Origin: Elusimicrobiota bacterium
GTDB lineage: Bacteria > Elusimicrobiota > Elusimicrobia > UBA1565 > UBA9628
Reading direction: 5' to 3'
Length of the DNA: 10,108 nt
Assembly (NCBI GenBank): GCA_028717525.1
Contig: JAQUNT010000041.1
Coordinates: forward strand, 1-10,108
This document shows, in pieces, positions 2,424-5,567 of this stretch. The position numbers and the translations under genes were made by a program. The notes under the pieces are model-generated. The model was not told the origin of the DNA, searched no databases, and saw only the letters and a list, made by a program, of their open reading frames with translations. Each line of letters starts with the position of its first letter. Within the stretch, counting starts at the first letter, position 1.

Positions 2424-3758
2424 ATGCCGAACAAGCCGCTCTACATGCCGGAAGACCGCATCCCCTTGCCCAAGCTCATCCCCATGGGCCTGCAGCACGT
2501 GGTGGCCATGTTCGGGGCCACGGTGCTGGCGCCCATCATCATGGGCTTCAATCCCCAGGTGGCCCTGTTCTTCTCCGGCGTCGGGACCCTGATCTTCGTC
2601 TTCACCACCCGCTTCCAAGTGCCGAGCTACCTGGGCTCCTCCTTCGCCTTCATCGGCCCGGTCCTGGCCGTGACCGGGGGCAAGCCCGAGAACATACCCT
2701 TCGCCCTCTGCGGCATAGCCGCCGCGGCATTCCTCTACGGCTTGGCCGCGGGCGCCACCATGAGATGGGGCTCGGGCTGGGTGGACCGGCTCATGCCTCC
2801 GGTGGTGACGGGCACCGTGGTCGCCATCATCGGGCTGAACCTCGCCGCCTCCGCCGTGGCCAACTCCCTCAACGAGAGCTTCGCCATCCGCGACGGGGAC
2901 GACCTGGCGCGGCTGGCCGTCGCGAGCGTGACCTTCCTGACCGCGGCCTTGGTCTCGGTCTACCTGCGGGGCTTCCTCCGGCTCCTGCCCATCCTGACCG
3001 GGGTGGTGGTGGGCTACGCCCTGACCGCGGGCCTGGGCCGGCTGGACCCGGCGGCCATGGCCGCCATACGCGACGCCTCCTGGCTCGGGGTGCCGCCGTT
3101 CCAGACGCCCTCCTGGAGTTGGAACGGGGTGCTGGTGATCGCGCCCATCTTCGTCGTGCTGGTGGCGGAGAACAAGGGGCACATCGCGGCCATCTCCACC
3201 TGCATCGACCGGGACCTGAGCCCGCACCTGGGCCGGGCCTACCTGGGAGACGCCCTGGCCACCTTGGTCTCGGCCCTGGGCGGGGGGACTCCGCAGACGA
3301 CCTACGCGGAGAACATGGGCGTGATGGCCATCACGCGGGTCTTCAGCGTCTACAACTTCATCATGGCCGCGTGCATCGCGATGGTCCTGGGGATCAGCCC
3401 GAAGTTCGGCGCGGTCATCCAATCCATCCCCGCGCCGGTGCTGGGCGGGGTGACCCTCGTGCTCTACGGCCTGATCACCATCATGGGCGCCAAGATCTGG
3501 GTGGATGCCAGGGTGGATTTCTGCCGGCAGAGGAACCTCATAGTGGCGGGCTCCTCCATCATCGTGGCCACCGGACTGGGCATCAAGGGCTTCTCCGTGG
3601 GAGGCTTGAACATCGCGGGCATCGCCTTCGGGACGGTCCTGGCCCTGGCGCTCAACTGGCTGATGTCTTTCGGGGAGCCGGCGGAGCAAGCCGCCTGCGC
3701 CCCTTGCGGGCATGCGGCCGGAGTGGAAGGACTCCCGGGGGGGAACGGACATGGGTGA
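2424..3758 (+). CDS. uraA: Uracil/xanthine permease, NCS2 family (UraA-like)
   Basis: Inner-membrane nucleobase:proton symporter, 444 residues (E. coli UraA is 429). The N-terminus (LIPMGLQHVVAMFGATVLAPI) and the half-helix motif YLGSSFAFIGPV (residues 69-80) are typical. Substrate and proton residues of UraA are conserved: Glu249 and His253 in VAENKGHIA (UraA Glu241 and His245) and Glu296 in TPQTTYAENMGVMAITR (UraA Glu290). The TTYxENxGVMAxTR form is that of uracil rather than xanthine permeases, so uracil is the likely substrate. The last 27 residues form a hydrophilic tail with a C-x2-C-G-H group (CAPCGH) that goes beyond the usual family end. The gene ends at TGA 3756-3758, inside the start region of the next gene. 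Confidence 0.92.
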   Translation: MPNKPLYMPEDRIPLPKLIPMGLQHVVAMFGATVLAPIIMGFNPQVALFFSGVGTLIFVFTTRFQVPSYLGSSFAFIGPVLAVTGGKPENIPFALCGIAAAAFLYGLAAGATMRWGSGWVDRLMPPVVTGTVVAIIGLNLAASAVANSLNESFAIRDGDDLARLAVASVTFLTAALVSVYLRGFLRLLPILTGVVVGYALTAGLGRLDPAAMAAIRDASWLGVPPFQTPSWSWNGVLVIAPIFVVLVAENKGHIAAISTCIDRDLSPHLGRAYLGDALATLVSALGGGTPQTTYAENMGVMAITRVFSVYNFIMAACIAMVLGISPKFGAVIQSIPAPVLGGVTLVLYGLITIMGAKIWVDARVDFCRQRNLIVAGSSIIVATGLGIKGFSVGGLNIAGIAFGTVLALALNWLMSFGEPAEQAACAPCGHAAGVEGLPGGNGHG

Positions 3759-4185
3759 GAAACTCGGACGCGATGACCAGACCCTGGCGATGCTGCGCGA
3801 GGCGTTCCGCCTGGCGGGGTTCTCGCCCGAGATCGAGGTCGAAGACGTCCCGAAGCTGCTGCCGAACTCGGGCTTCTTCGCCTACGCTCCTGACGAGCAC
3901 ATCATCGAGCAGGACGAGGCGGGCAAGGACCTTTACATCCTGTGCTCCGGCCAGGTGCTCATCACCAAGACCTTCGGCAGCGCCGGGGTCACCCTGGCCG
4001 TCTTGGAGCCCGGAGCCGTCTTCGGCGAGATGGCCCTGCTGCGCGACGGCATCCGTGTGGCCACCGTCGCGGCCGGGGCCGATTGCCGGGTCTTCCGCGT
4101 CGCCGCCCGGGACATGGAGTCCGTGCTCACGAGCCACCCCCGCCTGGGGACCATGCTCCAGGAACTGGCCGCCAAGCGCACCTAG
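3751..4185 (+). CDS. Cyclic-nucleotide-binding-fold protein (CAP_ED domain)
   Basis: A 144-residue single-domain protein. After an N-terminal helix (residues 8-24) comes a beta-roll of the cNMP-binding family: PDEHIIEQDEAGKDLYILCSGQV (47-69), then the phosphate-binding cassette FGEMALLRDGIRVATV (91-106). FGE and the key Arg (102) are present, but the Ser/Thr that normally follows the Arg is Val, so ligand binding is uncertain. There is no DNA-binding helix-turn-helix, so this is not a complete CRP-type regulator; it is more likely a stand-alone sensor or partner subunit. I chose ATG 3751, which overlaps the uraA stop and follows a G-rich stretch, over an in-frame ATG at 3712 that would lie 47 bases inside uraA. 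The gene is followed by a homologous damaged copy. Confidence 0.8.
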   Translation: MGEKLGRDDQTLAMLREAFRLAGFSPEIEVEDVPKLLPNSGFFAYAPDEHIIEQDEAGKDLYILCSGQVLITKTFGSAGVTLAVLEPGAVFGEMALLRDGIRVATVAAGADCRVFRVAARDMESVLTSHPRLGTMLQELAAKRT

Positions 4186-4373
4186 CAGGCCGACCGACGG
4201 TGCCGCGGCGGAGGGTTATGATATGATCCCGACGAGCACATCATCGAGCAGGAAGAAACCGACAAGGACATCTATGTCCTGTGCTCAGGGCAGGTGGCGA
4301 TCACGAAGATATTCGGCAGCGCCGGGGTCACCTTGGCTGCTTTGGAGCCGGGGGCCGTCTTCGGCGAGATGGC
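3892..4373 (+). repeat. Tandem duplication, unit offset 339 bp
   Basis: The segments 3892-4034 and 4231-4373 are homologous with a constant offset of 339 bp (113 codons). They share exact blocks of 23 bp (3892/4231), 21 bp (3973/4312) and 20 bp (4015/4354), with third-position changes between blocks. The constant offset, divisible by three, shows a duplication followed by mostly protein-preserving divergence. Confidence 0.85.
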
Positions 4374-4524
4374 TTTGGTCAGCGGAGGCGTCCGCGTGGC
4401 CAGCGCCGTGGCCCAGTCCAAATGCGAGGTCTACCGCATCGTGGCCGAGGATCTGGAGGCCGTGCTCAAGGACCGGCCCCAGCTGCTCTCCAAGATCCAA
4501 GGGCTCGCCGCCCAGCGCCGCTGA
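4210..4524 (+). pseudogene. 5'-damaged tandem copy of the cNMP-binding domain
   Basis: Frame 1 from about 4222 to TGA 4522-4524 encodes YDPDEHIIEQEETDKDIY and onward, a close homologue of residues 45-143 of the preceding gene, including FGEMALVSGGVRVAS. Three exact DNA matches of 20-23 bp (4231-4253, 4312-4332, 4354-4373) all lie exactly 339 bp downstream of their partners, so the two copies align without gaps. The copy lacks the N-terminal helix and first strand, and a TGA at 4219-4221 stands in frame just before the homology. A good RBS (GGAGGG, 4210-4215) precedes ATG 4223, but that ATG is one frame off. One extra C in the CCC run at 4228-4230 would give an ORF of 100 residues starting MIPDEHII. 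As the sequence stands, only an internal GTG (4294, 76 residues) could start it. Remnant, frameshift or sequencing error are all possible. Confidence 0.7.
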
Positions 4525-4549
4525 CGGCCCTCTAGGACCTCGCTGGGTC

Positions 4550-4578
4550 TTGACATCGGATGGGTCCGGGCCTATACT
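4550..4578 (+). promoter_or_regulatory. Sigma-70 promoter of the putative ncRNA
   Basis: TTGACA (4550-4555), a 17-base spacer, and TATACT (4573-4578). This is a perfect -35, ideal spacing and a -10 with five of six consensus bases, the best promoter in the window. Predicted transcription start is near G4585. It lies 25 bases after the damaged cNMP-domain copy. Confidence 0.8.
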
Positions 4579-4584
4579 GCTTTT

Positions 4585-4787
4585 GTCGGGTCGCCTCCAG
4601 CCCGTCCTGAGTCCGGTGTCGTCGACGCGGTCGTCAACGTAGACGTGGTTGTAGCGGAGCGTAAGCCGGTGCCGTGGCAGCCGTTGCAGTCGCAGTATCG
4701 TTCCGGACTCAGGGCGGGTCCCCGGCAGGATCTGGGGCGCCCAGGCAGTCGATTGAACGACGCTTGCCTGGGCGCCTCGACTTTTTG
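4585..4787 (+). ncRNA. Putative structured small RNA of unknown family
   Basis: A free-standing transcription unit without a convincing ORF. From the predicted start, GUCGGG (4585-4590) pairs with CCCGGC (4721-4726). Then 4601-4616 pairs with 4703-4718 over 16 bp with a single G-U pair. The two stems are separated by 10 unpaired bases on the 5' side and 2 on the 3' side. The 86-base interior (4617-4702) can form smaller helices, for example GACG/CGUC around a 4-base loop at 4624-4635, or alternatively CAACG/CGUUG (4635-4639 with 4682-4686). A terminator hairpin follows. Length would be about 200 nt, or about 140 nt if processed after the closing stem. I could not match it to 6S, tmRNA, RNase P, SRP RNA or a riboswitch I know. 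A valine-rich frame crosses the region but lacks a good start and RBS. Confidence 0.6.
4733..4786 (+). terminator. Rho-independent terminator of the ncRNA
   Basis: A perfect 12-bp GC-rich stem, 4736-4747 with 4765-4776, extends outward by about three more pairs including G-U pairs (4733-4735 with 4777-4779). A small inner stem GTCG/CGAC (4748-4751 with 4758-4761) is possible. TTTTT follows at 4782-4786, two bases after the extended stem. Confidence 0.7.
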
Positions 4788-4838
4788 TTCTTGGGCAGAG
4801 CCCTGGCTCCAATCCTAGTCCGGCAGCCACTTTCACCT

Positions 4839-4849
4839 GTTATCATAAC
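4839..4849 (+). promoter_or_regulatory. 11-base palindrome, possible operator
   Basis: GTTATCATAAC is a perfect 5-1-5 palindrome in an AT-richer pocket between two terminators. It overlaps one of two TAACGG(C/T)TG motifs (4846 and 4927) that flank the second terminator. No regulator can be named, and it may be chance. Confidence 0.2.
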
Positions 4850-4860
4850 GGCTGAACAAG

Positions 4861-4889
4861 AAGCCCTCCGAAAGGAGGGCTTTCGTTTT
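4861..4889 (+). terminator. Rho-independent terminator with GAAA loop
   Basis: A 9-bp stem AAGCCCTCC/GGAGGGCTT closed by a GAAA tetraloop, then TTTCGTTTT. It terminates + strand transcription coming from the ncRNA promoter or from the upstream operon, insulating the gene at 4953. Confidence 0.8.
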
Positions 4890-4952: not shown

Positions 4953-5567
4953 ATGCGCAGGGTCGTTCTTGTGTCGATCTGCCTCTCGGCTCTGCTGGTC
5001 GCTGCCTGCGCAGTCATCGTCGCATGGCCTCCTTGTTGGGGAAACGACGCCGCGAAACTAATCACGGTCTTCGACCGACAAGCAACGATCTTCAAGAAGG
5101 GGCTTGAACACGAGCGGTGGTCATTGAGCGATGCCGAGGCCGACGCTATCCGTAGCTTGGAGAAGAATAACCAGGTGGCGCGGCTTGAATATTTTGCCGT
5201 CGACGAAGGCCGCCTTAGCACACGATGGTCGAGGAGGCGGGATGGCGCTTTCCTTGCGGTTTCTTCTGACGTCCTCATGCCGGGGCCGTACGCATGGTCC
5301 GAGATCAAGACCGACGCGGCACTTCGAGCCGTGCAGGTGGGGCATCCAGTGCTGAGGCAGCAACCACTGGGCCCCGCTTTCTACGAGCTAGGTTATCCGA
5401 TTCTCGATGACGGGAAGGTCATCGGCATTTTCGTCGTCGCTGCAGCGATGCATAGTCCCGACTGGCTGTGCCGCCTCAAAGGCGCCTTATGGGGATGGAA
5501 CTCGAAGGTGCAATGGGCACAGCTTCGCGGAACTTGGAATCGGGGGCCTCTCAAGGACGATGGCTGA
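4953..5567 (+). CDS. Hypothetical membrane-anchored or lipoprotein with Cache-like end
   Basis: A 204-residue protein of no family I recognise. The N-terminus MRRVVLVSICLSALLVAACAVIVAW is either a signal anchor (residues 4-25) or a lipoprotein signal with lipobox VAAC (Cys19). The body would be outside the cytoplasm. An acidic/helical stretch (50-75) is followed by strands and by YELGYPILDDGKVIGIFVVAAAM (144-166), which resembles the closing strands of Cache/PAS-like extracellular sensor domains (inference from pattern only). There is no signalling output domain after it. Codon use is more mixed and GC lower than in the flanking genes, which suggests recent acquisition. It has its own possible promoter, no RBS, a terminator in front and gene-poor DNA behind. 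Confidence 0.65.
   Translation: MRRVVLVSICLSALLVAACAVIVAWPPCWGNDAAKLITVFDRQATIFKKGLEHERWSLSDAEADAIRSLEKNNQVARLEYFAVDEGRLSTRWSRRRDGAFLAVSSDVLMPGPYAWSEIKTDAALRAVQVGHPVLRQQPLGPAFYELGYPILDDGKVIGIFVVAAAMHSPDWLCRLKGALWGWNSKVQWAQLRGTWNRGPLKDDG

Follow-up and report, generated by a model that had tools for sequence, protein, structure and literature searches.

A candidate family of structured RNA genes with a constant 3′ hairpin in one order of Elusimicrobiota

Does the sequence at positions 4550-4787 of contig JAQUNT010000041.1 from an Elusimicrobiota bacterium (assembly GCA_028717525.1) encode a structured RNA, and if so, what is its family and how might it act? The whole stretch of 10,108 nucleotides that was analyzed is called the window below. 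The original prediction, made from the letters of this stretch, described an unlisted gene for a structured RNA, equipped with a promoter and a terminator of its own. That reading is supported by comparison with related genomes: homologs keep the stems, with compensatory changes in the terminal hairpin and between genera, and we are highly confident that, as far as sequence can tell, positions 4545-4786 belong to a real family of RNA genes.

Promoter, folded parts and terminator in the window

On the forward strand, positions 4545-4786 display the full layout of a transcription unit, composed of GGGTC-TTGACA-17-TATACT, a folded body and a hairpin followed by T5. The -35 box (TTGACA, 4550-4555) and the -10 box (TATACT, 4573-4578), separated by a 17-nt spacer, are evident in the sequence and were recovered by a promoter scan with 11 of 12 consensus matches; three such sites were found in the window as compared to 1.1 expected from shuffles. 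The GGGTC pentamer (4545-4549) lies directly 5′ of the -35 box, and RGGYC occupies the same spot in 44 of the 46 promoter-bearing copies of the family. The RNA is predicted to be ca. 200 nt long (4585-4786), its start being deduced from the promoter (4585 is the seventh base past the -10 box) and its end from the T-run (4782-4786). A scan of the window led us to reject a tRNA or tmRNA.

Folding of 4585-4787 gave a lower energy than all 200 dinucleotide shuffles (z −4.75), and the same holds for 4585-4730 (z −3.49). The main stem, P1, pairs 4600-4616 with 4703-4719. Its 16-bp core (4601-4616/4703-4718) with one G·U pair (4605-4714) is the long stem that had been predicted and is confirmed by relatives; counting the second G·U pair, 4600-4719, P1 comprises 17 bp. 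An RNAalifold consensus of 16 copies adds an inner helix of TAGCGG (4652-4657) with CCGTTG (4681-4686), in which one of six pairs shows two-sided changes. The terminal hairpin (4734-4778), defined by covariation and column conservation, has a 13-bp lower stem (4734-4746/4766-4778), a 1x4 internal loop (4747 versus 4762-4765), a 4-bp upper stem (4748-4751/4758-4761) and a 6-nt terminal loop (4752-4757). Like the promoter, this terminator hairpin with its T5 tail was present as predicted and reappears in the relatives.

The proposed 6-bp closing stem (4585-4590/4721-4726) fared less well. It is present in the window, with one G·U pair, but it is poorly conserved and weakly supported: a run of at least six pairs occurs in eight of 16 genus copies, against 78 of 240 partner-swapped and 377 of 1600 shuffled combinations, and the mean run is 5.9, compared to 5.25 for swapped partners and 4.7 for shuffles. 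Since the stem is found in only half of the copies, its coincidence with the promoter-derived start, originally taken as a match of two independent signals, is weak evidence. Conservation is highest in the terminator hairpin, not in the closing stem, and this hairpin also stands alone behind the same promoter.

No protein frame is shared by the 16 genus copies, whose longest ORFs of 38-64 codons lie in differing frames. Own promoter, compensatory structure changes, terminator and lack of a reading frame together mark the locus as a very probable stand-alone structured RNA gene. The claim that the family is undescribed agrees with a cmscan against Rfam 15, which at E values up to 1 gave two sub-threshold matches elsewhere in the window (E 0.31 and 0.49) and none over 4550-4787; among relatives, five loci had no match at E 0.1 and eight had none at the gathering threshold. 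In a literature search covering mainly open-access journal papers, none of the publications listed deals with this RNA family, and among those listed for the phylum name together with sRNA, structured RNA or noncoding RNA none is about RNAs of Elusimicrobiota.

After the RNA, the window contains a second hairpin with a T-run (AAGCCCTCCGAAAGGAGGGCTTT, 4805-4883). For this stretch, a counterpart with 85% similarity exists on contig C26 of genome G005, and parts of it match contigs C202 of G000 and C44 of G001.

Range, conservation and size forms of the family

Searching the bacterium's own genome with 4540-4800 identified three places at the DNA level, and 12 genomes matched in a set of 57 (its own and relatives), including all seven of the genus. 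The 16 long copies in the genus, distributed over 7/7 genomes, share the promoter, P1 and the terminal hairpin as conserved blocks, with an interior of the RNA body that varies in length and sequence; these 16 body-matching places make up alignments A1 to A3, from which partial, hairpin-only and duplicate rows were excluded. Covariance models extended the range stepwise. The body model R2 detected the long form in seven of 44 genomes of the taxonomic family, all in the window's genus, and the hairpin model R1 matched 25 of the 44. With hairpin model R3, constructed from the hairpin alignment A4 described below, 30 of 56 genomes of the order matched at 1e-4 or better, representing seven of 19 genera and three families; the other 26 genomes gave no match. 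The same 30 and none outside the order were found in a phylum-wide R3 search of 340 genomes including the order, in which 17 candidates were scored per genome (105 in the order search), with stricter filters in both, and weak members may escape. At least two hairpin matches per genome occur in at least six of the seven genus genomes.

Families f2 and f3 were absent from the training set of R3, yet each yielded one match (G044 and G036, respectively), and both matches carry the promoter, an element outside the model. A hairpin pattern applied to named genome contigs returned 12 records, 11 of them labelled Elusimicrobia bacterium. The twelfth, labelled Undibacterium (L095), fits the pattern by letters, scored only 25.7 bits with R3 and was discounted. 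The set of 50 hairpins used below consists of the forward R3 matches of at least 39.8 bits among 89, the rest being 38 reverse-strand echoes and L095.

The homologs retain the stems instead of breaking them, as the original prediction required. Within the genus, 249 of 256 P1 cells are paired in the 16 copies and most pairs are invariant, so this stem provides little covariation signal there. Differences appear between genera: the long forms of genus g9 combine CCCGCYCCGA on the 5′ side with TCGGGGCGGG on the 3′ side, whereas the window's genus has CCCGTCCTGA with TCAGGACGGG, and the two versions are related by two T-A to C-G exchanges. A helix-finding script detected nine to 11 pairs out of 11 in each of 33 long forms (the 32 with a promoter and L075); this helix is P1 in 30 of them, with a different best helix in L052, L069 and L057. 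Long forms have as their consensus a branched domain together with the hairpin, and for 13 of the 15 g9 long forms (alignment A6) it comprises P1, an inner hairpin and the terminal hairpin, with two-sided changes in eight of 41 pairs.

For the terminal hairpin, 29 sequences (28 distinct) from five genera, 15 of them from the window's genus, were aligned (A4); they were picked to span forms and genera from the 45 forward hairpins among 49 R1 rows, the other four being reverse-strand echoes. Paired cells amount to 97.9% (87.2% shuffled), and two-sided changes occur at 11 of 17 pairs (6.0 shuffled) and in 54 cells (15.8 shuffled), counts that lean towards structure because the rows are matches of R1, a structure model built on genus copies. 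None of 500 shuffles reached any of these three figures and seven of 500 reached that for further pair types, one of five measures; slid controls of the alignment were 33-51% paired. On the four-base side of the internal loop, the first position is G in 28 of 29 sequences, the second C in 25, the third C or T in all 29, and the fourth is variable. Judged by this alignment, the conservation of the internal loop exceeds what a plain terminator would need. The terminal loop (AUAGAA, AUUGAA, CUUAGU and similar) has T in 28/29 and A in 26/29 at two positions, and its other four positions vary between copies and genera.

A same-strand promoter lies within 330 nt upstream of 46 of the 50 hairpins, a threshold reached by six of 1000 shuffles and by one of 50 on the opposite side. 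Three of the four promoter-less hairpins have just 50-123 nt of upstream DNA, and the fourth (L075) has a degraded -10 box. The family promoter has a TTGAC-containing -35 box, a spacer of 16 or 17 nt and TATACT (TAGACT in two copies and TATAAT in another two). The motif alone was rejected as a mark of the family, as GGGYCTTGAC-18 to 20-TATACT also occurs at six other places in the seven genus genomes; these places (L088-L090 and L092-L094) gave no tRNA or Rfam match.

The distance between the -10 box and the hairpin separates three size forms. The short form (eight copies, 4-6 nt) is promoter and hairpin only, with a predicted RNA of ca. 55 nt. The intermediate form (six copies, 26-51 nt) has one small predicted 5′ hairpin, or two in L133, and the long form (32 copies) spans 125-279 nt; the 279-nt form, L069 from the window's own genome, has CCGTTCGTCCGTCG-like units repeated in tandem between its promoter and P1 (L069 1-320). 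The inserted 5′ domain measures ca. 20 to 270 nt and is absent from short forms, which are found near mutL in two genera.

These data bear on the reading that the element is a mere terminator or a DNA-level inverted repeat that gives no functional RNA. The TTT that follows close to the stem end in 46 of the 50 copies (it is lacking in four) and the frequent convergent orientation to queE fit such a role, but the same-strand promoter precedes 46 of the 50 hairpins, pairing is preserved through two-sided changes, and the orientation of the asymmetric internal loop is constant. Moreover, as the promoter lies 4-6 nt before the hairpin in eight copies, the hairpin does not end the mRNA of another gene there. 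We consider this reading most improbable.

A base-pairing small RNA, which would pair with mRNAs through unpaired segments of its 5′ domain or through its terminal loop and would use the 3′ hairpin mainly as terminator and stabilizer, has more in its favor. The 5′ domain is G-rich and strand-asymmetric, with GCAGTC in 15 of 16 genus bodies and eight of 15 bodies from other genera and its reverse complement in none, and two hairpin loop positions are conserved, which would also suit a role in which the loop is bound. Against it stand the persistence in two genera of a short form without 5′ domain, the variability of the other four loop positions, and the conserved internal loop that a plain terminator does not need. 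In addition, Hfq (PF17209) was found in none of the 56 genomes of the order in a search that recovered its control in 5/14, which lowers the usual Hfq-type reading. Base pairing is rated unlikely, and we judge it to come next after protein binding through the hairpin, which is most likely.

The near-constant, strong promoter could also belong to a 6S-like RNA that binds RNA polymerase. 6S RNA is a long duplex with a central open-promoter-like bubble, and the long form of the family resembles it as a stand-alone structured RNA of about 200 nt with a sigma-70-type promoter. Rfam 6S RNA (RF00013) was detected in none of the 56 genomes of the order, which would leave its place vacant, but with sensitivity limited to recovery in only five of 14 known control genomes this absence is weak. 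Unlike 6S RNA, the family has no Rfam match, includes forms of ca. 55 nt and occurs in several copies per genome in the genus (at least two hairpin matches in at least six of seven genomes). Its predicted folds lack the long duplex with central bubble: the 14 short and intermediate members, as well as two look-alikes from genus g13 described below, fold into one to three hairpins, and no open-promoter-like bubble was seen in the 14. A 6S-like function is regarded as very unlikely.

Genomic setting and extra copies

The neighborhood of the 50 hairpins was compared over stretches of ca. 3 to 16 kb by tblastn with twelve neighbor proteins, named after Pfam. MutL, MutS or QueE was found beside 29 hairpins and other proteins of the mutL/queE neighborhood beside six more; none was found beside 15, including that of the window. 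The usual order, also present in the f2 genome, is mutS-mutL, the RNA on the same strand, and then convergent queE-queC-exonuclease. In the f3 genome, mutL lies 1.8 kb from the hairpin on the opposite strand. The copy in the window does not lie at this place and counts among the extra ones.

We also inspected the DNA after mutL in genomes without R3 match: 23 of the 26 were queried, 22 matched and 20 stretches were read. A family-type promoter was not seen downstream of mutL in 17 of these 20, covering up to 1.5 kb and in three cases 262-623 bases, and known members can sit farther from mutL than that. The other three do have such a promoter. In G034 and G045 (genus g13; loci L186 and L189), ca. 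0.5-0.6 kb after mutL, GGTC-TTGACG is followed by a small hairpin and then by a diverged hairpin similar to that of the family, with GTCC/GGAC at the top and an asymmetric loop; a T-run is clear in G034 only. These look-alikes are likely diverged members missed by R3 and were kept outside all counts. In G041, inspection by eye revealed no such hairpin after the promoter.

Upstream of the window's RNA lie two tandem genes for cyclic-nucleotide-binding proteins according to Pfam (3712-4185 and 4228-4524), of which the second lacks the part that corresponds to the first one's start. A comparable gene pair is found in G001, and no match to this region was present in the examined stretches of four other genus genomes. 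An ORF for 204 amino acids without Pfam match (4953-5567) follows downstream; it is missing together with the RNA at the corresponding place of G001. There, the cyclic-nucleotide-binding genes are upstream and a gene for a HEAT-repeat protein is downstream, with few tens of bases in between. As the next gene is also missing, the boundaries of a unit are not visible from this site. In sequence comparison it shows that putative RNA copies come and go.

Many genus copies away from mutL are alike over ca. 240-280 bp, coinciding with the segment from promoter to T-run, and have unlike flanks; some copy pairs share more than this unit because they represent the same locus. In G005, a pair of copies matches perfectly along the 130 bp that run from ATTGGGTC to the T-run, and the DNA on either side differs. 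This unit-limited identity, and the location of the window's copy in DNA that is missing in G001, speak for a dispersing, selfish promoter-to-terminator unit that is copied around the genome without cellular function. Yet gene conversion between paralogs would account for the G005 pair as well as transposition, and may underlie unit-limited identity more generally. No target-site duplication was noticed by eye in the inspected flanks, and in the one case tried, the copy on contig C74 of G001, no clean empty site was found in G000. In several genera and in f2, a copy is located close to mutL or queE, as would fit a kept gene. A phage or plasmid origin was rejected after blastn of the unit against phage and plasmid collections gave no match. 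Viral origin was likewise rejected: the hairpin pattern had no match in viral contigs and the P1 pattern matched one (L203), by chance, because neither R2 nor R3 matches that contig and the pattern lies inside an ORF. Taken together, a selfish unit appears distinctly unlikely.

Ten proteins encoded next to RNA copies were examined with PADLOC. One copy has a Fic-type protein nearby, and a second copy has a related protein in its vicinity; in addition, there was a single weak TPR match. No constant partner gene emerged among these neighbors. On contig C12 of G005 (L055, 3600-6450), two predicted genes lie between a pair of identical intermediate-form RNA genes; TPR repeats are encoded by one of the two, and the other has no Pfam match. 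Locus L142 (ca. 3970-4790 in locus coordinates) contains stretches of ca. 45-410 bp that recur at many places in all seven genus genomes, the first of them inside a gene whose product has a pilin-type motif at its N-terminus (L071:7420-7878). One RNA copy has a divergent neighbor encoding an RNA recognition motif protein (RRM_1; L073, 7071-7490).

Proposed mode of action and significance

The window's RNA gene would be one of several paralogs in this Elusimicrobiota genome, members of a family characterized by a near-constant sigma-70-type promoter and a constant 3′ hairpin that also resembles a terminator. The 5′ domain is absent in the simplest members, consists of a single small predicted hairpin or a pair of them in others, and at its largest is a branched domain closed by a 17-bp stem. 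The short form that is little but hairpin, the conserved internal loop and the lack of detectable Hfq in 56 genomes point to a protein-bound RNA. We infer that the working part is the hairpin with its 1x4 internal loop, to which a protein would bind. The RNA itself may be trans-acting and serve this protein as decoy or scaffold. Greater stability or an additional partner could be the contribution of the 5′ domain, and the dose might rise with extra copies. An RNA gene family that works through protein binding is, as a joint statement, considered a balanced proposition; the protein-binding mechanism in itself is proposed tentatively, at somewhat below even confidence.

The proposed mode resembles that of CsrB/RsmY-type RNAs, which sequester a protein via hairpins and of which more copies give more dose. 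Those sponges carry repeated GGA in hairpin loops, whereas the family described here has one conserved hairpin per RNA, with no GGA in its loop among the A4 sequences. As a more far-reaching and rather improbable extension, the family may represent a lineage-specific regulator class operating without Hfq or recognizable 6S RNA, in which the constant 3′ hairpin would be a protein docking module, the 5′ domain of 0 to ca. 270 nt would be swapped or grown for new specificities, and a unit of ca. 90-360 bp would spread in the genus as a minimal RNA gene.

From the parts of the sequence record compared here, the family is unlisted, lineage-specific and structured; it appears ordinary in kind, its unusual features being the constancy of the 3′ hairpin and the elasticity of the 5′ domain. 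Comparative genomics has yielded other candidate structured RNAs, whose families were likewise new and deduced from covariation in unannotated intergenic DNA (PMC2864571, PMC8632094). The present family differs in its confinement, as searched, to one Elusimicrobiota order and in its constant 3′ hairpin with expandable 5′ part.

The phylum Elusimicrobiota would thereby gain an unlisted RNA family with a testable structure. Neither Hfq nor 6S RNA was found in the 56 genomes, which lends interest to the way in which small RNAs work in this order, and the member of ca. 55 nt, nearly a bare hairpin, would be a ready bait for a protein partner. The series from bare hairpin to a branched RNA of ca. 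300 nt, largely at one syntenic place, may offer a natural experiment on how an RNA gains domains.
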